Source of the DNA: Symbiodinium sp. CCMP2592
Lineage: Eukaryota > Sar > Dinophyceae > Suessiales > Symbiodiniaceae
Direction of reading: 5' to 3'
Length of the DNA stretch: 64,000 nucleotides
Assembly: GCA_905221615.1 (NCBI GenBank)
Contig: CAJNDT010003446.1
Coordinates: forward strand, 1,582,800 to 1,646,799
The notes beneath the pieces were generated by a model. It worked only from the letters and a program-made list of their open reading frames with translations, ran no database searches and had not been told where the DNA came from. This document shows, piece by piece, positions 17,769-57,995 of this stretch; the first letter of the stretch is position 1; each line of letters opens with the position of its first letter. The position numbers were made by a program, and so were the translations under genes.

Positions 17769-17960
17769 GTGTCGTGATGGTGGTCGTGGTTGTCGGTTGT
17801 TGGTTGTTTTGTGGTTGCAGTTATGAGCGTTGTTGTGGTTGTGGGTGGTCGTCGTCGTCATCGTCGTTGTGAATGTGGCAATCTCAGCTTCTGCATCTGC
17901 CAGGCCTTCACCTTCGCCGTGGATCGAGATGACCTTTGCTTCAGCCGCATTTTGTGCAAA

Positions 17961-18960
17961 GATGGAGATGCAAGAGCCTTTGAAGGTGGACATCGGATGC
18001 CTGCTGAGTGCCTTCCCCAATCTACTTCCTCGTCAATTCGACAGATCTATGACCAGGAGTTCAGCTTCCACAGGTGAAGGCAGTGCCAGTGACGATGCAT
18101 GGGATGCCAGTTCCAGTTACACCGAGCAAGAGCGCACAGAGAGCCCATGCAGCAAGCTGCCTCCAATTGGCCCTCCTCCGGGCCTCGAACACCTTGGACC
18201 TGCCACCCTTGGTTGCCAGGCCTTGAAGACCTCAAAGCCTCGCGAAGCACTCTCGAAACGTGAAGTGGTGCAGAATATGCCAAAAACACCCGGTTCTCAG
18301 CCGCAAAGACAGGTCGAAAGAGAGGTGCGACCATCTTTGTCACGTAAGGGGTCCGACGGCACTGCTCGCCGCTCAGCGAAGAACGCCAAGTCTAAGCACA
18401 GCAAGAACTGCAAGAGCCAGGACGCCTATCAGATTCAGATTCTCTTCACGGGATATGACCCGGAAAAGCATGCGGACTTCGACCTCGTGCCACGGCTGAT
18501 CGGCCGAAAGGGCTGCAACATGGTCCCCATCTTTTCCACAGGGGCGAAGGCCCGGGTGCGGGGTGCCGGCAGTGGCCACTTCGACTCCACCAGCCCGAAT
18601 GGCGAGCCGGCGGAAGCCGATCTCATGCTCCAGCTCGTTATCTCAAGCCCGACGCAGCTCAGCGGCACGTGGCAAGTGATGTGCACTGATGCAGCACGTG
18701 ACATGCTACAATCCACGGGAAGAAAGAGCACAGACGTTAGACGTTGTCGGTGGGATGCATTTTACGCGAGGACGGCTGTAAGTATTTCCGATGCCCCGCT
18801 TGGTCTGGTTTTGCTGACCCCTGCCGTCCGATCCGCGTCAGGAAGAACGTCCAGGATGCGGCTCTGCGCAGTGCCGAAGTGCTGCTGGACGATATTTCGT
18901 TCCACTTTGGCCGTTACTGTGGTGGCTTGGCCGAGATTGATGCTTTGTCAGAATGCTTTG
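17961..18960 (+). CDS. KH-domain RNA-binding protein
   Basis: The likely start is the ATG at 17961 (MEMQEPLKVDIGCLLSAFPN), since the open frame upstream runs into repeat sequence. After a Ser/Glu-rich stretch comes LPPIGPPPGLEHLG, the PPPGLE motif frequent in dinoflagellate proteins, then a basic linker. Positions 18430-18650 encode a KH fold: QIQILFTGYDP, then DFDLVPRLIGRKGCNM with the GxxG loop (GRKG), then AKARVRGAGSGHFDS and LMLQLVISS. The last helix lies in a second exon at about 18840 (after GCGTCAG): KNVQDAALRSAEVLLDDI, in a different frame, so an intron of roughly 150-200 bp separates them. The first donor and the C-terminus are not fixed. KH domains bind single-stranded RNA or DNA; a target cannot be inferred. 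Confidence 0.75.
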
Positions 18961-18996
18961 GGTTCGCATGTGCAGCAGGTTGCACCTGTGGTTTAA

Positions 18997-21900: not shown

Positions 21901-22301
21901 GCGACAGAGCCGAGATCTTCTGTTTCCGAACCGCGAGTGCTCCGCCGCAGCCTCATTGCCAGTACGAGGTCTATATAGACTATAGAACTATATAGGGTTG
22001 ATTAGGTCTAGGTCGTCTAGGTATCCCTTCCAAGTGCAGATAGTTAACTAAGGTGTGAAGGAGACATGAGGAAACACGCAGCAAGAGAAGCTGCTTCGGA
22101 ATTCTTCAGATCTTTCCCTCCACCTATGGAAGTTGATGTTTGTCGGATTCACTGTATAAAGGTAACAGTCAACGGTCGGAGCGTTCGCCTGTCTCCCAAT
22201 TCCCTAGTGCTTACAGTGAAGTATGTCCAATTCCCATGCCGTCTTTGGCCCAAGAGACTACCAACTTTCCGCCGAGATCCGGCATCCGCGCATGAAGGGC
22301 G
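18997..22301. other. intergenic, no gene recognised
   Basis: No domain was recognised on either strand. It holds the telomere-repeat-bracketed segment at 20073-20340 and a short CTATATAGACTATAG patch near 21970. Confidence 0.4.
20073..20340. repeat. segment bracketed by inverted telomere-like repeats
   Basis: The left edge reads CACCCTAAACCCTAAACCC and the right edge CTTGGGGTTTAGGGCG, so CCCTAAA and TTTAGGG face each other across about 270 bp. Further CGTAAACCCTAAAG words lie just inside the left edge. Similar brackets occur at 36360-36655 and 51786-51955. Confidence 0.5.
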
Positions 22302-25277
22302 ATGCAGCTTGCGGCGCGCTGTTCGCTGTCGGGATGGAGCATGTTGGTTCTTCTGGCGGGTGTGGCCGCACAGCAAGCGCAGGACCCGTTGGCTCAGTGG
22401 TTGGATGACCTGAAGTTCAATCTGCAGGACGTGACACAGGAGAAGGCGGGCATTACTTTCCATGTCACAGACCTTGTCTGTCAGAACTTAGAACTAACAG
22501 GCATCCAGTCAGCAGTTCAGGGAGTGGGCTTGTCCGTGACGCTTGGCGGTTTGGGTATCCAGTGCTCCGGGCACTTTACCTACCATGGCTACGCAATCCT
22601 CAGTGGGTCTGGCGGCTTGAAAGCCGTGGTCTCCAGCATGCCAACCTCCTCCGCGACAGTCGTTCTTGAAGGCAGCGGCTTTGAGAAGAGCCTCCCCTGG
22701 GCTGTGGACGTGAGTAGCTGCTCTGCCAGTTTGGATTTCAAGCTGACGCTCAGTGGTTCCATTGTGGACTACATCGTGAACTTGTTTTCTGGACCGATCT
22801 CAGCTTTGATCGAAAGGCAAGCAGTCCAGCAGGCATGTGAGAAGCTCAAGCAGCTTGCATCTGGGCCTCTCTCCCGCAAGCTGGCGGCCTTTAATCGCCT
22901 TATGCTCCCTCCGGGCTTTCGGGGAGCAGAGGGCTCCGCTGAGCCTCCAAGCAGCGGCAGTAGCGTGCTGGATGCTTTGCAGTTGACGGTGGGCGGTTTT
23001 GCGGCTCAAGTGCTGGCGGAGTCCGCGAAACCCGCCGTGGCGGAAAGCACGCTGAGAGCAAGTTGGGTGCAACGCCGGCTCTCAGAAGCGGAGGGGACCG
23101 TGGATTGGCAGAAGGACAAGTTGCTTCACTGGCTTTCCTGGTTGCTGGATGATGTACTTGGACCTGAGCGCCTAGACGAGGCACTTCGGTGGGCCTGGAA
23201 GGGCCAAGCGATGACCATCCCAGGTCCAGCCCAGGCATTGTTAACAAGCACTATCCAGCAAGCAGACGCCGGCTTGAAGCTGAAGCTCGATGTCTTCTTG
23301 GTGGAGGCTGTGGTCGACGGAGCCGATGGCATGTCGTCCTTCTCTCCGGTGGAAGCAGTCGGACCCGAGGACCTCCGCTTCGAGGTTGCTTGGGGTGCCG
23401 CCCTCGGCCTCGGCGTCGAAGTGAAAGTGAACATGGAAGCGATTGACCTGGCGACTGGACAGTCTCAGGGTTCAGTCGTGCAGGAGATGAGTCTACACCT
23501 CGGCCTCATGCAGCCTTCACTGGGCGTCACTGCTCAAGCGCTCGTCCTGGCAGACCAATGGCCAGGGCGACACACCTTGGCGCAGCTGCTCCTGGAGCCT
23601 CGAGCATGTCTTACCAGTATCTTCCAGTCTGCACCCCAAGTCCAAGCCCTCGAAGCGAAGTTCTCGACGCTTGCTGCTCCTTTGAGCTTCGAGGTGGAAT
23701 GTTTCAAAAGTGTCTTGCGCTGATGCACCTTGCGCTTATAGCGTAGTAAAAAAGCAGAAGCGTGTTCTTCCTTGTCTTGGAGTAGTAGTACAGTAGTACA
23801 GTAGTAGTACGATAATAGTACAGTAGTACAATAGTAGCTCCTATGTTTCTCGACCTTGACGGCTTGGAGAGGCCAAGACCACAGGCGCTTTGGAGGCCTC
23901 CATCTCCTCTTTACTCAACCACTTTGTGGTGCTCTTCAACCAGGTTTACGAGCCTCTGCTGCCTGGAGCAATCCAGCGGGCCGCCTCATCAAAACTTCTT
24001 CTGTCGAAGTTGAATGAGGCTCTGAAAGCGCAGATGCAGCCTGGAGGATGCATTGATCCCTCTATTGCCTCCCAGAAGATTCGCGCGCAAGTGCCTCAGA
24101 ACTACAGCAACTGGCCGCCTCTCTTCGACACTGCCTTCCGGAGTCGGTTGAACAATTTCATTGATGGCTTTCTCGCGCAGAACACATCAGTCTTGGGCCA
24201 GTGCTTCTCCGACGTACCAAGCCTAAGGCTTCCATTAGATGCCGAGTTCACCATAAAGCAGCTGAGTGCCGAGGGCACGGACCAGGTCAGCAACCTCCGA
24301 GTGCTGATCCCCGAGACCCAGCCCAGTTTGCTGGGCATGAGCGTTGCAGTGAAGTGCCCGGAGCCTGCAGCGGCATGGCGGCCGAGTCTGGGCATCAACG
24401 GATCTTTGCAGGCTGGGGGCTTTCAAGGTAGTGGCCTGGCAAGTGTCGTAGTGCCTTGCGGTGCAGCCGGCGCAGAAATGGAAGTTGTGCTTGATCTTTG
24501 GAGCCTTCTGGATTTGCAGCTTCCGTCCAGCCCAGCTTGCCTTATGGCATCTGCATTTGCGAAGCTGGATTTTAAGGGCATCAATGCGACCTGGGATGAT
24601 GGTGGTGACTTCCAGGTGACGCCAAGCAACGGTTTGCCGCAGGAGCCTTTCAAGGAACTTTGCGAGATGCACCCTCAAGTCTGCAGATTGGCTGTGAAGT
24701 TCCGCCAGTACCTCGCGGCGAGACTTGGCACCACCGGCGTGTTCCAGCATTTTCGCGATGCAATGCTCAAGCAATGCACTCAGACGCCCTCGACCTTGCA
24801 GGCACCGCGGGGCGTGGACAGGGATTCCGGTGGCTACTGGTACGTCCCTGCCAGCAGCCTCTGGCTCTGGCTGATCAGCGGGCTTGCAGTGCTGGGATTG
24901 TCTCTAACATACGGCTTCTGTGCCCAGTTCGGTGAACTCCGGCATCCGGAGAGCTGTGCAGACTCTCGAACCGCGCCAGTGCCCTTGGCGAGTGTTTGCT
25001 GGTTTGGCGTGCAAAGCTGGCCCGGCTTGCCCTGCTCGGGAAAGTCTGGCACTGTTGCGGTGAGCATCCTCATGTCTGCTGGGTTGGTTGCGAGGATTCT
25101 TGCCTGCTTCTGCCTTCCAGTTGCTTCAAGCGGCATTGAGATCATGCACGGCAGCAGCAGCATCTTCAAGGAGCCGTGGGTCTGCAGTGCAATCTAGCTA
25201 TGAGAGTTGGAATTGGGCGGAGTAATTTCGTGGATATTGCGGACATGCGGCGAAGTGCATAGAGACACATATGTATA

Positions 25278-25328
<51 letters not shown>

Positions 25329-26405
25329 ATTATATAGGCGGGAGCCAAAAATATGTAGAGTTTGTCTCCCCCGAAGCCGAGTCCAAGTTGGGGGTGCCAG
25401 GATGAAACCCTACTTCTGTTTACCTTCTTCGGCACTGGCGTTCAGTTTGGACTTGGCGGGTCGCTGTACTGCGAGTTCCTGTGGTTCTTTATGTCGCTTG
25501 TGGCGTCATTGGTTTGTCACGCCATCCTCTTCCTGGTGTGGATGACTCCTTTTCTCGCGAAGCACCGAAGGCAGTTGCTCCTTGTGGCAGTAGTCCTGGG
25601 ACGATTTCCGCTCTCCGAGATCGAGACCACCAGCAACACCATTTTGATCCTGAGCAATCGAGTGTCACTCCCTTTGGGGCTCTCGCAGTCTCTCGGACTT
25701 AGCCTGCAAGCAGGGGCCTATGTCTCCTGGTTCTCATCGGTCAGCACGCTGCTGGCAATCCTGATGCTGCTGATGCTGCTTCCACGGGAAGTGAAGACGA
25801 GAGACTGGGCGGCAGGGAAGGCACCTGTCAAAGTGATGGCCCTACAAGGCATGGCGGCTGCAATCATGACTGCAGGAATCTGTGTGTGGTGGTTCTGTGA
25901 CTATTTATATGCTGAAACCGGTGGCATCGCCGGAGCGTTAATTGATCCAGCTTCCTACAGTGCCAGCCAGCTTGGTGCGTCAGATACAGCCTTGCGGACG
26001 ATGATTGTCCTCATGGCTGTCGTTTGTCCACTGTGTCACGTTGTAGCTTTTGGCCTGGGATTGTGGGGAAAGGCACCGGCTGCAGCAAGAAAACTAGCTG
26101 GCTTCGCTGCTACATTCTGTTTGCTGGACCTTTTCACGATCGGCTACCTGATCAGCTTCATTGAAGGCGTAGGAGGCTTCGCCTCCTCATCAATTCACGG
26201 CCTGGCCCCAAAGATATGCGACCTGAGCCAGGAGAGCGTTGATGAAGACTGTTTGACGATTCGTACTCGAGTGCTCCCGCTTGGCACTGCTGGCTTGGTC
26301 GTAGCAGCGGCAGCGTGGGCCTCCATGTGCAGCTTTCAGGTCTTAGGTGCTGGCCAGGGCCAGGACCCTCGAAGGGAAGACGCCGCCACAGCTGTTGCAG
26401 CTTGA
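22302..26405 (+). CDS. TULIP (BPI/LBP-like) lipid-binding protein with multi-pass, PqiA-like C-terminus
   Basis: Three exons: 22302-23709, 23885-25179 and 25401-26405, joined by GT-AG^G introns of 175 and 221 bp that keep the frame, giving about 1235 residues. It opens with a signal peptide (MLVLLAGVAAQQA). The first domain has the BPI/LBP pattern: FHVTDLVCQNLELTG, WAVDVSSCSASLDFKLTLSG, then a helix ending VQQACEKLKQL. A second, similar unit starts at the exon 1/2 joint (SISSLLNHFVVLFNQVYEPL). A membrane segment follows (LWLWLISGLAVLGLSLTYGF), and then several more hydrophobic spans in exon 3 (LYCEFLWFFMSLVASLVCH, RRQLLLVAVVLGRFPLSEIE, STLLAILMLLMLLP and others), whose layout resembles PqiA. 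It probably binds or moves lipid at a membrane. The TULIP call is firm in pattern; the PqiA likeness is inference. The start could be either of two in-frame ATGs. Confidence 0.7.
23781..23837 (+). repeat. AGT/ACAGT microsatellite in an intron
   Basis: AGTAGTAGTACAGTAGTAC units inside the first intron of the TULIP gene. Confidence 0.85.
25281..25326. repeat. (TA)n microsatellite in an intron
   Basis: Uninterrupted TA dinucleotides inside the second intron of the TULIP gene. Confidence 0.9.

Positions 26406-52297: not shown

Positions 52298-52374
<77 letters not shown>
52298..52374. repeat. TA/CA microsatellite, left flank of the transposon
   Basis: A (TA)n-(CA)n-(TA)n array ends directly at the transposon's left end. 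A similar TA array continues from 57996 on the other side, so the 5.6 kb unit appears to have split one microsatellite. Confidence 0.85.
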
Positions 52375-52376
<2 letters not shown>

Positions 52377-52411
52377 TACCCCCCCCCCGGGTTATCCACC
52401 CGTTTTGGGGG
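52375..52411 (+). repeat. left terminal inverted repeat of the transposon
   Basis: GCTA, a ten-C run, and GGGTTATCCACCCGTTTTGG. The GTTATCCAC core is shared with the right end at 57957-57995 in opposite orientation. Confidence 0.85.
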
Positions 52412-52446
52412 CGAGGGAGGAGTTTGGACCGAAAGGTCCGTTTGGC

Positions 52447-52800
52447 GGGCCGCGGTGCGGAGCACAGCCATGCCTGCTCTCGCACCCGCCCGTTCTACGT
52501 GGGGTCCTCCCACACGCAGCCTCGTGTTGATCCTTTCCCGGGCCGCGGTGCGGAGCACAGCCATGCCTGCTCTCGCACCCGCCCGCTCTACGTGGGGTCC
52601 TCCCACACGCAGCCTCGTGTTGATCCTTTCCCGGGCCGCGGTGCGGAGCACAGCCATGCCTGCTCTCGCACCCGCCCGCTCTACGTGGGGTCCTCCCACA
52701 CGCAGCCTCGTGTTGATCCTTTCCCGGGCCGCGGTGCGGAGCATAGCCATGCCTGCTCTCGCACCCGCCCGCTCTACGTGGGGTCCTCCCACACGCAGCC
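52447..52800 (+). repeat. 93-bp tandem repeat, 3.8 copies, subterminal
   Basis: Units start at 52447, 52540, 52633 and 52726 with GGGCCGCGGTGCGGAGCA and are nearly identical (for example one T/C and one C/T difference). The fourth is cut short at about 52800. Because 93 is divisible by three, the array stays open in several frames and gives repeated 31-residue translations, which I take as artefact. It lies only at the transposase-gene end and could serve as transposase or ATPase binding sites. Confidence 0.9.
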
Positions 52801-53129
52801 ATAACCCAGCAGATAAGATATGACGGCAGCAATGGGCCATTCGCAGTTTCGCTATGCAACACGCAATCTTGCAGACTTCACCATACGAGGATACATCACC
52901 ACACATGAACAGAGGCCCCAGGCATTGTGGTATTTGTGTCCTCTAGATGACATGGGTGGGTATGTGGCTTCTCGTTCAATTGAATGCGCGGCAGACCGAG
53001 AGAAAGAACAAGATGTCATGAGCATCCGGCTTTTGTGTGTTAGAGGCAGCGAAAGCGTGTGATTCCGTCAAAATTGCGTCCTCGGCCTGCGACAGGCTCT
53101 TCCTGGATTGGCCCTAGTGGCTGTGCATC

Positions 53130-54386
53130 TCAGAACTTCTCCGTGATGTTGCTCATGTACCATGTGAAGAGCTCCCCGGTGCTGGCCCAAGCATCCTTGC
53201 CTCTCTGCCAATACTCAAATTGAGCGGAGCGTATCTTCGCCTGCAGAAGGGTGGAATTGCATTTCACGTTCTGGTTAATCTTGAGGCGATCTTTGATGAA
53301 CCGCCACGCACGATCCACCACCTGAGTTCCTGCTTTCAAAGTGAGCTTGCGGCCATCAGGGAGTCTGTGCTTGGCGAGGCGCACAAAGGTAGGAGGCTTC
53401 CAAATCCATTTCCCACCTTTCCACACACGCTTCTTCTGATGGACCACGGCGTCATGGAGAACTCCTGCCACCTTGGCCTTGTAACTCCGAGCGCTATCGG
53501 TGTGGAGTATGATGTTGCGGCCCTTGAGCCAGGTATTGGCGATCTTCGTCCAATGCACTTTCTTGATGGCGCCCGGGCCTGGCGCTCTCTTGCGTGTGCT
53601 CACGCAGGGCAATCGGAGCAAGACCAACGACGACGGCTTGCCGCGGACGACCATGCCGAGCCACTGCTCCCATTTGATCTTGCTGCCTCGCACAGGCGAA
53701 TCTTCTGCTGGAACAAGCATTTTGTCGAACACTGCCTCGTCTGCCTCTACCTCCGTCCACTTCTTGCCCTTCGGGTTTCCAAAGGTCATAGACCTCTGGT
53801 GAGCTTCGACGTATGCCTTACGGGTGAAGGCTAGGCCCTTCTCAATACGTTCGATGGCCTTGTGGTTCATATCCAGCAGAATGTGGATGCTGGAAAGCGG
53901 GACGCCGGCAAGCCGCAGGAGTAGAGCACAGCCTTGCACGGCAAGAGAGTGTCCTTCTGACCCTTTGGCGGAAGTGAACACGGGATGAAGATGATGTGGC
54001 AAGATGAACTTGTGGCAGTTCCTGTTGCGGCACCGGTACCGCGGTGGAAGCCCATCGCGCTTCTGGAGCGTGGACACTGCACTCTTGTTGCAGAACGGGC
54101 ATTTCATCTTGCTCCAATCTGGCAAGAATCCATCTTCGGTAAGGATCTTCACCATGCGATCCTCGTCCGCGTTGAGCAAATCCTTTAGATTTCGCTTCCA
54201 TTTCATGCGGTCCATGCGGAGCACGCAGCCGTCGCGAACGTAGGGGACCTTCTGCCACAGTTTGGTCTGGGAGCTTTGGCCGACGGGCTTCTTGGTCAAG
54301 TTGGTCTTGAGAAGGAGCCTGGTCTTCCCCTTCTTCGCACAAGGAAAGATGGCGGAAGGCTTCTTGCTCGGCAACTGCTTCCCCAT
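53130..54386 (-). CDS. IS1595/Merlin-type DDE transposase with zinc ribbon
   Basis: 418 residues, no introns, starting at an ATG on the minus strand (MGKQLPSKKP). A basic N-terminus is followed by a zinc ribbon: CPFC (C96, C99) and YRCRNRNC (C119, C124), the layout of the IS1595 zinc-ribbon domain. Then comes a helix-turn-helix-like stretch (GVPLSSIHILLDMNHKAIER). The catalytic core has VEADEAVFDK (D216), ILHTDSARSYK (D297) and AGTQVVDRAWRFIKDRL (D358). These match the family's first and second aspartates and the final acidic helix, here Asp rather than the usual Glu, so a DDD variant. It should cut the element's ends and join them to target DNA. No stop or frameshift interrupts it. It lies 720 bp inside the left end, and the ATPase gene is upstream on the same strand. 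Confidence 0.88.
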   Translation of the reverse strand: MGKQLPSKKPSAIFPCAKKGKTRLLLKTNLTKKPVGQSSQTKLWQKVPYVRDGCVLRMDRMKWKRNLKDLLNADEDRMVKILTEDGFLPDWSKMKCPFCNKSAVSTLQKRDGLPPRYRCRNRNCHKFILPHHLHPVFTSAKGSEGHSLAVQGCALLLRLAGVPLSSIHILLDMNHKAIERIEKGLAFTRKAYVEAHQRSMTFGNPKGKKWTEVEADEAVFDKMLVPAEDSPVRGSKIKWEQWLGMVVRGKPSSLVLLRLPCVSTRKRAPGPGAIKKVHWTKIANTWLKGRNIILHTDSARSYKAKVAGVLHDAVVHQKKRVWKGGKWIWKPPTFVRLAKHRLPDGRKLTLKAGTQVVDRAWRFIKDRLKINQNVKCNSTLLQAKIRSAQFEYWQRGKDAWASTGELFTWYMSNITEKF

Positions 54387-54688
54387 GGCGTGTCAACCCG
54401 AGGTCCTACACTGGTCCACAGTGTCTAGGAGTCTAGGCGCTAAGACTGCTGCTTCCAGCATATACATCGGAAAGACGCGACGATCAGATAGAGGAAGCAG
54501 TGCCTGCAAGACGCGGGAAGTGCAACCCACAGCAACCGATGCGAGCAATTATTTTGCATTCGGCTCGCCGATAGAGAGATGTCAAAACTACCACCGGGCA
54601 CGTCAAGACAAGACCATTGGTCTATACTCGCCCGGAAGTCCATTGGGTTTATTCTACCGCAGCCGCGCTGGCTACTCCTCTGCTCAGG
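54387..54688. other. spacer between ATPase and transposase genes
   Basis: About 300 bp without a convincing frame. It would carry the 3' end of the ATPase message and the start of the transposase message. No obvious promoter motif was seen. Confidence 0.5.
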
Positions 54689-56596
54689 TCACTGGTCATG
54701 CATGGCAAGGGCGGCCTCTTCGTCCGGATCCATTGCTCGCACGAGTGTCTCCTGTTCATCCGGACACAAGGGCGCTGACGAAGCGGAGGCGGTCTCGGGA
54801 ACGGGAGACTTACCACGGATTCTGCGAGCTTTGCTTGCAGAGGGATTTGGAATGTTGAACGAGGCGCGGTCCACCCGATTAGGTTTGGGTCCGGTGCCAA
54901 TGTACAGTGAGAGGCGAAGGTCACCTGCTGCTTGTTCCCCAGTCTGCTGAGGCGATTCAGGCGAGTCTGGAAGAACGCGAACAGGGCGAAGCCATGTCTG
55001 CAGGGTGTTGTTGCAATCCTGGATGTAGTTCTTGACATTGGGGAAGCTAGCCATGTAATCTGCACGCTCGTCGATCATGGCCTGCTCTCGCTCCACTTCA
55101 GCTGCATAAGTGGCGGTGTAGACTGTCAAGCCATTCTTGTAAGTGTTGTAGTGGGGCTTGTCTTTCTCGGCCAGCAGATCCTTCTGGATGTCGCCCTTGC
55201 TGATTCGGTGGACTATAGCATCCGGGCGTTCAGAGGGCAGGCGGAGATACAAGGCAGAATCTGTGAACGCGAATGTAGTGCATCTCTTCAGAACTGCAAG
55301 TATGTCCTTCTTATGGGCGTCGGCAAAAAGAGGACCAAGGAGTTTGATGAAGGCCTCGGGGTCGAGAGTCGTGTCTGCTGGTAGAACGCCTGCAGGTTCA
55401 TCGCCTGTGTCGTTGGAGGCCAGAGCCCTGAATTGATTGCGCGTCAGGCGAGCGTCGTTGTAGCGGCCGCTTACAGTGCCGTCTTCATCGGTCGTGACAA
55501 AAGACTTCAGGTCGGCCATGTCCAGGCGTCGCCCTGAAGGGTCGTCCAAGAAAAGTGCTTCCTGGATCTGAGGCGATCTCTGCCTAAAGTTGTCAAGAGA
55601 TTTCCCTCGTCTCCAGCCAGGCTTTGCTCCGTGTAGACCCAGGCGTCGGACGTGGTAGCGTCCGATGGCCATGGCCATGGCGATGATGGCCGGCGTCTTG
55701 CCGACTCCTGGATTCCCGACCATGATGATGGCCGCGCTCAAGAGGAGGGGGTATACCAGTGGCAGAATGTGCTCCGCGAAGGTGACGTTAAGGCTGGAAG
55801 TCGTCAGCGGGAACTCAGTCATGGGAACGGACCCGGAAACACCACGGGACTTGTTTTGGCACATGCTCCTGACTTTGATTTCTGGCCAACCTGCCAAGGG
55901 GGTACCGGAGTCTGGCTTGATGTTGGTCAAGATCCAGTATGTCTGCTGATTGAGAGCGTCGCAGTCAGGAGCGAAGGTGTTGATGTAGCGAATGCCCTCA
56001 GCAAGCTCGTCATTCTCCGGCGACCACAGGTTGGATGATGATTTGTGCAAGGTGTCCTGCGACTTGTCTTCTAGTTTGTGCCAGTGCACATGATGTCCAC
56101 GCACCCTTGCCAACGCCCACTGGAAAGCCTTCTTTATAGCATGAGGCCCGTTGCGGAACACCGGCACGAAGGGTTTCCCGCTGCACATGGACAAAGCTGC
56201 AGCCGAGGAAATGGACTTTTCAAGGTATATGACTTTGATCACATTCCAGCAGCCGTCACTCATGTTCTGGATGATGATGTCGACTTTGCTCGTTTCCGGC
56301 GGGATGGTGGGAAATCGGAGGGGAAGAGGTAGTTGGCCTAAATCGCCTATCGCAACATGGTTTCCAATGGTGTTGGCGCTGCCGCATTCCGTAATGCCTA
56401 CGTGGGCATCGACGATGACGGATGCAGATTTGACGTCCTTAGTATCCAAAGGGCGACAGACACCCGCCAAGAAGTCTGGGATCGAGAACTGATCGGCCGA
56501 GTCCTTCGTGAAGACGTCGGGCTCGGCCAGCATTCGCACCTGGAAGTTGCGACCCCCTACTGACGCAATGCCTTCGTCCATAATTTTGCCTGTCAT
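54689..56596 (-). CDS. P-loop ATPase, SF3-helicase-like, transposon-encoded
   Basis: 635 residues without introns. The first 270 residues have no domain I recognise. The ATPase core has IIMVGNPGVGKTPAI (Walker A, residues 294-301), ALFLDDPSG (Walker B, 348-352), a SFVTTDEDGTVSGRYNDARL stretch in the place of the SF3 B' motif, and FRALASND (391-396) with the asparagine of SF3 motif C or AAA+ sensor 1. The compact spacing, about 100 residues from Walker A to the Asn, fits superfamily 3 helicases of Rep type. A generic AAA+ regulator like those of Tn7 or IS21 is the alternative. The C-terminal third is Pro/Ser-rich and acidic at the end (MDPDEEAALAMHDQ). It lies between two other genes of the element on the same strand, which implies a role in transposition or element replication. 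Confidence 0.75.
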   Translation of the reverse strand: MTGKIMDEGIASVGGRNFQVRMLAEPDVFTKDSADQFSIPDFLAGVCRPLDTKDVKSASVIVDAHVGITECGSANTIGNHVAIGDLGQLPLPLRFPTIPPETSKVDIIIQNMSDGCWNVIKVIYLEKSISSAAALSMCSGKPFVPVFRNGPHAIKKAFQWALARVRGHHVHWHKLEDKSQDTLHKSSSNLWSPENDELAEGIRYINTFAPDCDALNQQTYWILTNIKPDSGTPLAGWPEIKVRSMCQNKSRGVSGSVPMTEFPLTTSSLNVTFAEHILPLVYPLLLSAAIIMVGNPGVGKTPAIIAMAMAIGRYHVRRLGLHGAKPGWRRGKSLDNFRQRSPQIQEALFLDDPSGRRLDMADLKSFVTTDEDGTVSGRYNDARLTRNQFRALASNDTGDEPAGVLPADTTLDPEAFIKLLGPLFADAHKKDILAVLKRCTTFAFTDSALYLRLPSERPDAIVHRISKGDIQKDLLAEKDKPHYNTYKNGLTVYTATYAAEVEREQAMIDERADYMASFPNVKNYIQDCNNTLQTWLRPVRVLPDSPESPQQTGEQAAGDLRLSLYIGTGPKPNRVDRASFNIPNPSASKARRIRGKSPVPETASASSAPLCPDEQETLVRAMDPDEEAALAMHDQ

Positions 56597-56906
56597 GGTT
56601 GAGTGTTGCCCTGGAAGACGACGACGATGAAGCCGAGGACGCAGCAGAGGAATGACAAGTCAGAGACCCTGATCCACTGCGTGGCAAATGCATACGAAGA
56701 CAAGAATTCATTTCGTGGTTACATATGCACCTATGCGCGTCTCTGTGTGTGTAACCTGTCTGTACACGCTCGGTGCTGTATACTCATGTCCATGCGGCTT
56801 TCCCTTGCACATCACAAAAGCAGCTGGCTACTGGCGAGAGTATTTTTCGCGTGGTGCCAACGCGATGCTTGCTGTGGTGGGACTGCACAGTCGCCACTGC
56901 AAAGAC
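56597..56906. other. spacer between acidic protein and ATPase genes
   Basis: About 310 bp with no supported gene and no repeat of note. Confidence 0.5.
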
Positions 56907-57827
56907 TTACACGTTCAGGCCGAGGGCTTCGTTCGCCGCCCACAGGTCCTGCGTCACATCTTCCAGCATGCTCTTAAGGTGACGCACTCGGCGGCGCAAT
57001 GCGCTCTTATGTGTGGAAGAGGAGCTTGAGCTTGAGCTGGAGGAACTCGAACTTGCACCATCGACGTCCATGGTCTGGGCCTCCTCTCCCGGGTTGTTCT
57101 GACCGCTGTTGTCGATGATGTTGCCGATGGGCTCGGGGACGTGTGCGTCGGAGTTCGTCTGTTCCAGAACATCGTCGTTGTCGATGGGCTCGGGGACGTG
57201 TGTGTCGGAGTTCGTCTGTTCCATATCATCGTCGTGTTCACCATCATCTTCCGCCGGCTTGTCTTTGATGGCCAGGAGTTTGTCGGCATCCTTGATGTGG
57301 TTTCCTTTGGCATAAGGCTTCTTGCTGGAGGCCAAAAGCCGAAGAAGCCGCAAGTCAGCTTCTACGCTCCAACCACCATTGGCCCCAACTTTCAAAGAGA
57401 GTGCACGTTGAATATTGTTCATGGCGACCTGCAACGTCTTCTTCGTCATGGGATCACGAGTGGGGTGGATGAAGGCTTTCCCATCCATGATGGCTTCATG
57501 GATCTTGTCGTCGCACCGGATGTTGGAAGCTGGCCAGGGCACCCTTGTCGCTGTCGGCGTAGCCGGAGGTGGCGTCGTGTTGGGATTGGTCGGCACCAGG
57601 CGGAGATGTGCGGCACCTTCCTCGAACGACACGACTCCGGAGACGTGCATACCGGCCATGAGGAACGGCACGAATGGGAGGATGCACGGGCGCTGAGAAT
57701 CGCGAAGGCTGCGAGGCAGGAGGCTACGTTTAGTAGGCAATTGCATGGAAGTTGATTGCGGGGTATTGAAGTTCAATCCGCGGCATTGAACTTCAATCCT
57801 CCGTCTGTCAGGGTTGTGCAAAGACAA
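56907..57827 (-). CDS. acidic, Ser-rich protein of unknown function, transposon-encoded
   Basis: 306 residues without introns. The start may instead be the Met at residue 28 (MQLPTKRSLLPR). The N-terminal half has a possible folded part (SGVVSFEEGAAHLRLVPTNP, then helices around MTKKTLQVAMNNIQRAL). The middle is strongly acidic and contains a tandem 19-residue duplication, EQTNSDTHVPEPI and EQTNSDAHVPEPI (57-bp period, DNA copies at 57126 and 57183). A run of about 13 Ser and a basic, coiled-coil-like C-terminus (LRRRVRHLKSMLEDVTQDLW) follow. No family is recognised. As the gene nearest the right end it could be a DNA-end or adaptor protein, but that is only context. Confidence 0.6.
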   Translation of the reverse strand: MSLHNPDRRRIEVQCRGLNFNTPQSTSMQLPTKRSLLPRSLRDSQRPCILPFVPFLMAGMHVSGVVSFEEGAAHLRLVPTNPNTTPPPATPTATRVPWPASNIRCDDKIHEAIMDGKAFIHPTRDPMTKKTLQVAMNNIQRALSLKVGANGGWSVEADLRLLRLLASSKKPYAKGNHIKDADKLLAIKDKPAEDDGEHDDDMEQTNSDTHVPEPIDNDDVLEQTNSDAHVPEPIGNIIDNSGQNNPGEEAQTMDVDGASSSSSSSSSSSSSTHKSALRRRVRHLKSMLEDVTQDLWAANEALGLNV

Positions 57828-57956
57828 TGTGTTCTAGCATCGTGTGCTCGTGCGTTAGTACTGCACATGCAATAAGGCTCGGAGTGTGCACGTACATGGA
57901 TACAGACTACAGATGCTTGAATAATGAGGGGTCAAGGGCAACATGGACAGGATCTA

Positions 57957-57995
57957 CCCCAAAAAGCGTGGATAACTCGGGGGGGGGGGGGTACC
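57957..57995 (-). repeat. right terminal inverted repeat of the transposon
   Basis: CCCCAAAAAGCGTGGATAAC, then TC, thirteen G and TACC, the inverted counterpart of 52375-52411. It is followed directly by (AT)n. Confidence 0.85.

Follow-up and report, generated by a model that had tools for sequence, protein, structure and literature searches.

A Symbiodinium DNA transposon with a P-loop ATPase and a third protein, a pair also found with a dissimilar transposase

We analyzed a 64,000-nucleotide stretch of contig CAJNDT010003446.1 of Symbiodinium sp. CCMP2592 (the window; its copy of the element is called C3446). Positions 52375 to 57995 of the window are almost certainly occupied by an autonomous DDE-type DNA transposon, made up of a three-gene unit that encodes a protein designated P3, a P-loop ATPase, and a transposase. 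This element belongs to an old and diverse family in which the three genes usually follow one another as P3, ATPase, and transposase. Furthermore, the P3-ATPase pair was found with at least two dissimilar transposases in the window's own assembly (1.098 Gb), within which copies and relatives were searched, and we regard it with high confidence as an exchangeable module.

Comparison of the copies gave exactly the coordinates that a first-pass annotation of the window had proposed for a complete transposon. The features of the element are as follows.

52375..57995, minus strand: complete transposon, 5,621 bp, with its 5' end at 57995 in the gene orientation; ends from the comparison of copies C3446, C902, and C630
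56907..57746, minus strand: P3, 279 amino acids (aa); N-terminal part conserved and bearing the motif GGW..A..LL..L, followed by a serine-rich linker and a leucine-rich C-terminus
54689..56596, minus strand: P-loop ATPase, 635 aa; Walker A motif GNPGVGKT at residues 294-301, Walker B-like FLDDP at 349-353, conserved R378 and N395
53130..54386, minus strand: transposase, 418 aa; zinc ribbon C96, C99, C119, and C124; presumed catalytic D216, D297, and D358
52375..52410, unstranded: transposase-proximal terminal inverted repeat, GCTA-C10-GGGTTATCCACCCGTTTTGGGG
57957..57995, unstranded: P3-proximal terminal inverted repeat, reverse complement GGTA-C13-GAGTTATCCACGCTTTTTGGGG
52367..52374, unstranded: target-site duplication copy ATATATAT; length ambiguous within the repeat, 8 bp from C630, C5253, C4667, and C902
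57996..58003, unstranded: target-site duplication copy ATATATAT; length ambiguous within the repeat, 8 bp from other copies
52446..52800, unstranded: subterminal 93-bp tandem repeat, 3.8 copies
57743..57799, unstranded: 20-bp imperfect repeat (GCATTGAAGTTCAATCCGCG) upstream of P3

The inverted ends noticed in the first pass consist of a 32-nt inverted repeat (52379-52410 and 57957-57988, 91% complementary), and the comparison of copies extended them to GCTACC (52375) and GGTACC (57995). The element starts with GCTA-C(10)-GGGTTATCCAC at one end and, on the opposite strand, with GGTA-C(13)-GAGTTATCCAC at the other. That all three genes belong to one transposon was borne out by two further near-identical, full-length copies sharing them, C902 and C630; the flanks of these copies differ, giving three sites. 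C902, in which all three genes are intact, matched the window copy at 99.7% over 4,888 bp and at >99% over other long pieces, and differed by small indels and, upstream of P3, by the replacement of a palindromic stretch. In C630, the ATPase gene is frameshifted, and ~10 kb of foreign DNA (at about 108375-118453, known from its two ends) separates it from the transposase gene. Target duplications of 8 bp were seen at C630 (ATAAGTAT), C902 (ATATATAT), and, in related families, C5253 (AAATAAAT) and C4667 (ATACATAT), including sites that are not plain TA repeats. At the window copy, which sits within an AT microsatellite, and at C871, the duplication ATATATAT is consistent with these and ambiguous within the repeat. 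A 2-bp TA target duplication, prompted by the microsatellite, was ruled out by the 8 bp in C630, C5253, and C4667.

The three-prime end GGGGTAGC is common to families whose transposases are only ~41-52% identical. Its pattern gave 23 ends in 22 of the 41 stretches examined; the 19 stretches without it include eight of the Kyakuja-Dileera-Zisupton (KDZ) type described below and at least three that stop before the element end. The octamer after the three-prime end was at least 75% A+T in all 23 pattern matches. The microsatellite is therefore a preferred kind of target, and the insertion of the window copy into one, as recorded in the first pass, fits this preference. When eight five-prime flanks were fetched, the end was visible in C871, C5253, and C4667. 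At C519:140803-144369 and C1446:1280025-1283567, the ends lie close together with a partial transposase, and in C519 the end on the transposase side occurs in both orientations, in a fold-back-like manner. Neighboring copies on the same strand were observed at C4897:44881-56183, with only TATAT between the end of one element and the start of the next, and at C2347:55830-66875.

All three genes are intact, intronless, and on the minus strand, in the order P3, ATPase, and transposase, in agreement with the first-pass annotation. As a control for frame length, 500 sequences of the composition of 52801-57978 were simulated with a first-order Markov model, and the longest stop-free run among them was 315 codons. 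The lengths of the stop-free frames of the transposase (420 codons) and the ATPase (656 codons) were reached in none of the 500 simulations, and given this simulated maximum neither frame is due to chance. P3, previously given as 306 residues, a form that does not start at an ATG, has 279 aa counted from its ATG in a stop-free frame of 308 codons. Since 308 codons were attained in 3 of the 500 simulations, the reality of P3 rests on its relatives. A same-strand set of three intronless genes would be in keeping with spliced-leader trans-splicing in the host, a process that dinoflagellates have (PMC6027434).

In 26 of the 30 loci around the best transposase matches, an ATPase profile match was located upstream, two of the 26 being weak (E about 1e-6). 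At the remaining four, the ATPase of C630 lies beyond the insertion, C519 and C1446 seem internally deleted, and C861, with no ATPase match in the ~1.5 kb viewed upstream of its transposase, is unexplained. The opposite pattern, in which the ends enclose only the transposase and the ATPase always lies elsewhere, was not seen. A P3 match lay upstream in 26 of 28 ATPase copies and was missing in C255 and in the shortened C4897 copy; the loci scored with the ATPase and P3 profiles were also the source of those profiles. Recognized ends enclose all three genes in C3446, C902, C630, C5253, C4667, and C871, with some frames broken. At C119:247098-248705, the P3 and ATPase matches share a 599-aa open-frame length, possibly as one fused gene. 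Synonymous divergence (dS) was calculated from stop to stop for copies intact in a single frame (18 transposase, 15 ATPase, and 15 P3), and values of 2 or more, or infinite ones, were obtained for 139 of 153 transposase pairs, 98 of 105 ATPase pairs, and 88 of 105 P3 pairs. The frames and motifs persist despite saturated synonymous sites between families, which indicates long purifying selection.

Linkage was tallied over all 115 transposase, 73 ATPase, and 23 Merlin rows, 49 of 107 KDZ-type rows, and 66 of 72 P3 rows; rows left out were second pieces, came from contigs where no ATPase place was listed, or were far from such a place (by eye). The rows were merged into 94 transposase, 61 ATPase, 47 KDZ-type, 65 P3, and 23 Merlin places. 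Because the underlying lists score only some of the initial candidates (100 of 322 for the transposase, 69 of 277 for the ATPase, 139 of 152 for P3, and 91 of 168 for the KDZ type), these tallies are lower bounds. Among the 61 listed ATPase places, 27 had an IS1595-type and 15 a KDZ-type transposase within 3.5 kb, and none had both. The transposase was downstream of the ATPase and on the same strand in all 42 linked places, where ~0.0003 chance neighbors would be expected per ATPase place. Therefore, P3 and the ATPase form a stable module that is joined to different transposases. The possibility that the ATPase gene is confined to window-type transposases was ruled out by the KDZ-type loci. 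Accordingly, the pairing behind the first-pass proposal of a new class, a transposase with its own ATPase, was retained, and the exclusive tie of the ATPase and P3 to this transposase was given up.

The second partner was recognized at eight ATPase loci (C3702, C147, C358, C5241, C2347 twice, C5218, and C4778) that lack an IS1595-type transposase downstream and carry there a different zinc-cysteine protein, in some cases with broken or truncated frames. This protein has no detected similarity to the window transposase, and a search with it gave at least 107 matches in the assembly. The Pfam KDZ cut-off was passed at 25 places, 13 of which coincide with matches of the zinc-cysteine protein. Two of its members, ~0.5 kb downstream of an ATPase, scored 29.3 bits (C5196) and 28.8 bits (C5273) against the cut-off of 26.6. 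No Pfam KDZ match was obtained for the members at C3702, C2347, and C3990, and C580 gave only E=0.12; the KDZ label of such members is transitive because they have no KDZ match of their own. The KDZ-partnered ATPases form one clade (7 tips, support 1.0), as do the KDZ-partnered P3s (6 tips, 0.998). At C3702, a KDZ-type element at ~261946-267855 has imperfect 33-nt ends and an 8-bp duplication, TAATTTTA, which are moderately supported, having been found by eye with the ends free to slide. At C580 and C3990, a (TA)n run starts ~0.26 and 0.11 kb past the last gene, respectively. The apparent order at C3990, which is not among the 61 places, is an ATPase C-terminus (weak, E=1.7e-6), a KDZ-type transposase, and P3. 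P3 was also observed behind a KDZ-type transposase, without a listed ATPase in the neighborhood, at C191:263303, C857, C1369, C1513, C2779, C3990, C4929, C5144, C1332, and C1702.

At one of the two C734 places, a third transposase-like open frame (L082:897-2201) was found downstream of a divergent ATPase. By eye it has a zinc ribbon and DDE-like blocks, it is open at the end of the DNA read, and it was recognized by none of the libraries used. ATPases similar to that of C734 occur at C413, C317, C3550, C2090:714748, C359, and C1441.

The first-pass annotation had described the window transposase as an IS1595/Merlin-like protein with a zinc ribbon and a DDE(D) triad. It is probably a remote IS1595 relative, and it is not a proper Merlin. 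The zinc ribbon C96, C99, C119, and C124 and the aspartates D216, D297, and D358 are invariant in 13 aligned members, so that the ribbon was upheld and the triad would be DDD; the catalytic role was assigned by motif, and the third position was aligned by eye. NCBIfam transpos_IS1595 (NF033547) matched the window transposase at E=3.3e-6 with 27.1 bits and matched 3 of the 13 members; this is the sole significant library link of the transposase, yet it is well below the curated cut-off of 75. Likewise, Pfam DDE_Tnp_IS1595 matched 3 of the 13 members, with a best E=0.022 that is below the Pfam cut-off, and the window copy had no match to the Pfam IS1595 domain at E<=1. Prokaryote contigs (genome_contigs) scanned with the transposase alignment gave 177 pattern matches, none of which was confirmed. 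No match was obtained in a plasmid search with the transposase, no relatives of the element were found in viral contigs (viral_contigs) in four scans, and PDB sequence searches with the proteins of the element gave no significant match.

The likeness to Merlin and IS1595 consists of 8-bp target duplications, the remote IS1595 signal, and one end starting with GG, and the N-terminal zinc ribbon is as in most IS1595 groups. The duplications ATAAGTAT, AAATAAAT, ATACATAT, and ATATATAT agree with the 8 or 9 bp of Merlins. The passages cited describe the published Symbiodinium Merlins as encoding a transposase, with 5'-GG ends, duplications of 8 bp, and in some cases tandem repeats, and also report imperfect inverted repeats; one family has an extra overlapping open frame on the opposite strand, which the authors took for chance (PMC8101967). 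The same passages state that all Merlins described lack the IS1595 zinc domain (PMC8101967), whereas the window transposase has a zinc ribbon. The window element differs further in its DDD instead of DDE triad (D358 at the third position in 13 of 13 aligned members, by eye), sub-cut-off scores, two more genes, and a GC-starting other end. Its P3-side end is GGTACC (GGTATC in C4667), and its transposase-side end is GCTACC in the window, C902, C630, and the 23 pattern matches, the pattern itself having demanded that end. Merlin membership was ruled out by the triad, the invariant zinc cysteines, the extra genes, the end without GG, and the sub-cut-off IS1595 domain. Pfam-positive Merlin/IS1595 transposases were observed at 23 places in the assembly, including C4623, C686, and C4996. 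None of the 23 PF12762 places overlaps any listed place of the window transposase family, and no listed ATPase place was found within 5 kb of any of the 23 Merlin places.

The ATPase carries the P-loop motif GNPGVGKT, a DD pair ~50 residues later, and an N ~43 further on, all of them conserved. This spacing is, as we take it, AAA+- or SF3 (superfamily 3)-like, and an assignment to either class would rest on these motifs. The SF3/AAA-like character given in the first pass was thus matched at the level of the motifs and by no significant family match. The ATPase had no match in Pfam, NCBIfam, and PADLOC; its best PHROGs match (E=0.22, function unknown) was not significant, and PDB gave a best E=0.16 by sequence and no match by profile. 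Among the 14 family members searched against Pfam, one matched AAA (E=0.25) and two matched nSTAND3 (best 0.081). As for homology to IstB or TnsC, no significant match was found in Pfam, NCBIfam, or PDB by sequence. A phage search with the ATPase found no relatives, and a plasmid search gave a single match at E=0.9. P3 has a conserved N-terminal part with GGW..A..LL..L, a serine-rich linker, and a leucine-rich tail; its N-terminal part presumably has a Myb-like look, as assessed by eye.

The explanation that we favor overall is that the ATPase and P3 may select AT-rich targets and probably activate the transposase. The transposase would bind the TTATCCAC-containing ends and use its DDD triad for cutting and joining. 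AT-alternating DNA, perhaps picked out by P3 as a DNA-binding or adaptor partner, would be where the ATPase assembles; the ATPase would then deliver this target to the transposase by recruiting or activating it, as do IstB of IS21 and TnsC of Tn7. Such a division of labor, with the ATPase and P3 on the target and the transposase on the ends, would explain how a single module can work with different transposases. We consider it rather probable that the ATPase and P3 act in transposition itself; that they set the AT target is a more tentative proposal. The likeness to IS21 (IstA/IstB) and Tn7-like (TnsC) elements lies in a DDE transposase with a dedicated ATPase and exchangeable targeting parts, as described for the bacterial elements (PMC11208146, PMC10293859). 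The differences are the eukaryotic host and the ATPase, for which no sequence link was found and whose role here is inferred.

Several observations weigh against this explanation, the strongest being the missing ATPase fold, the precedent of TET/JBP genes as passengers, and the insertion of C3702 at TAATTTTA. Two single-sequence structure predictions were unusable (mean predicted local distance difference test scores of 35 and 41), none of the libraries used linked the ATPase to a transposition ATPase or to any family, and its Walker A motif is off consensus in 3 of 14 aligned members. The clearest KDZ-type element, C3702, is at TAATTTTA, which is not a microsatellite, and for this reason a common AT-repeat target is not proven. 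At 19 of the 61 ATPase places, neither transposase was among the listed matches; of these, C630 and C153 have an IS1595-type gene on other evidence, C698 is internally deleted, and one of the two C734 places carries the third transposase-like frame. Near-duplicate loci are common among the 42 linked places, which lowers the number of independent cases below 42. The trees disagree for the window copy, its transposase grouping with C297, C255, and C2090 and its ATPase with C871 and C4897. Transposase-ATPase distances correlate weakly (r=0.29, reached in 23 of 5,000 permutations); the corresponding values were 0.26 for ATPase-P3 (171 of 5,000) and 0.56 for transposase-P3 (21 of 5,000). The tree conflict and the weak correlation indicate that parts were also exchanged within the IS1595-type families. 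Recent copies had ratios of nonsynonymous to synonymous divergence of 0 to 0.93, often 0.5-0.9, and one of 1.79 on seven changes, all from small counts. In addition, C1446, with both ends read, lacked a matching duplication; a clean one was likewise missing in C519 and the first copy at C4897, which abut other end sequences; and no recognizable end was found in five of the eight five-prime flanks (C3591, C5200, C13, C1136, and C2090; 0.7-0.9 kb read).

It is rather unlikely, as the alternative that survives best, that P3 and the ATPase are passengers that aid the element otherwise, by anti-silencing or regulation of expression, and that the transposase acts alone. The occurrence of the same pair with different transposases speaks for this, as it recalls the TET/JBP genes that, according to the passages cited, are carried by many fungal transposon lineages (PMC12730594), and so does the low-complexity, leucine-rich build of P3. 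However, order and strand are the same in all 42 linked places, and an ATPase match accompanies 26 of 30 transposase loci, which suits a required component better than a passenger carried now and then.

It is likewise unlikely that the transposase sets the AT-rich target, or that AT repeats are merely tolerated, with the ATPase only aiding strand transfer. In favor of this, MuTAnT, described with only a transposase open frame, can target TA microsatellites (PMC4486113); C3702 lies outside a microsatellite, and there was no (TA)n run in the DNA read around C3702 or C2347. The (TA)n runs near the last genes of C580 and C3990 speak weakly to the contrary, the element ends not being determined there.

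A reading in which the ATPase serves as a replicative helicase of the SF3 type, and a virus- or plasmid-like replicator integrating by means of a borrowed transposase is the element itself or its ancestor, appears quite improbable. The order and spacing of the P-loop, DD, and N are compatible with SF3 as well; one core with different transposases and the same-strand neighboring copies at C4897 and C2347 would also agree with it. On the other hand, no polymerase, nuclease, or capsid gene was recognized among the three genes, the four scans of viral_contigs gave no related loci, PHROGs gave no significant match, and the 8-bp duplications are normal. Finally, nothing was found to favor separate genes brought together by chance or by nested insertion, and this reading is refuted by the linkage counts (42 of 42 in order and strand, ~0.0003 chance neighbors per place), as well as opposed by the six copies whose recognized ends enclose all three genes.

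Among other eukaryotic DNA transposons, AcademH is a lineage with its own helicase, and its helicase and transposase presumably differ from the proteins of the window element. Its helicase and duplications of 9 or 10 bp are described in the passages cited (PMC10045372). The likeness to KDZ is that the module's second transposase passes the Pfam KDZ cut-off at two ATPase-linked loci, and Zisupton makes 8-bp duplications (PMC12730594). The differences are that the window transposase is not of this type and that the KDZ partner gene in the passages cited is a TET/JBP dioxygenase, not an ATPase (PMC12730594). Insertion into TA microsatellites is shared with MuTAnT and with other elements (PMC8449440); MuTAnT differs in its Mutator-type transposase, and no ATPase is mentioned in the passages cited (PMC4486113). 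A literature search found no description of an element such as that of the window, with most subscription journals and bioRxiv preprints outside its scope and Repbase not searched. Further long open frames (389, 475, 445, and 348 aa) on the plus strand of the window, at 17827-18996 and 22296-26405, are host-gene-like.

Eukaryotic DDE transposons have mostly been described with the transposase alone or with a DNA-binding helper, and the part-swapping design has until now been known mainly from bacterial elements such as Tn7. It is conceivable, and we propose it tentatively, that a eukaryotic Tn7-like logic operates here, in which a P3-ATPase module has recruited at least two, perhaps three, transposases (an IS1595-like one, a KDZ one, and, as the third, a zinc-ribbon type) and steers them to alternating AT DNA; this putative targeting module showed no sequence link to TnsC or IstB. 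Whether the transposase or a separate, exchangeable ATPase module picks the target thereby becomes testable. If the proposal is true, a dedicated and shared ATPase module would extend to eukaryotes the principle by which Tn7 and IS21 are chiefly controlled, would explain insertion into microsatellites, where harm is little, and would be a new source of targetable integration systems.

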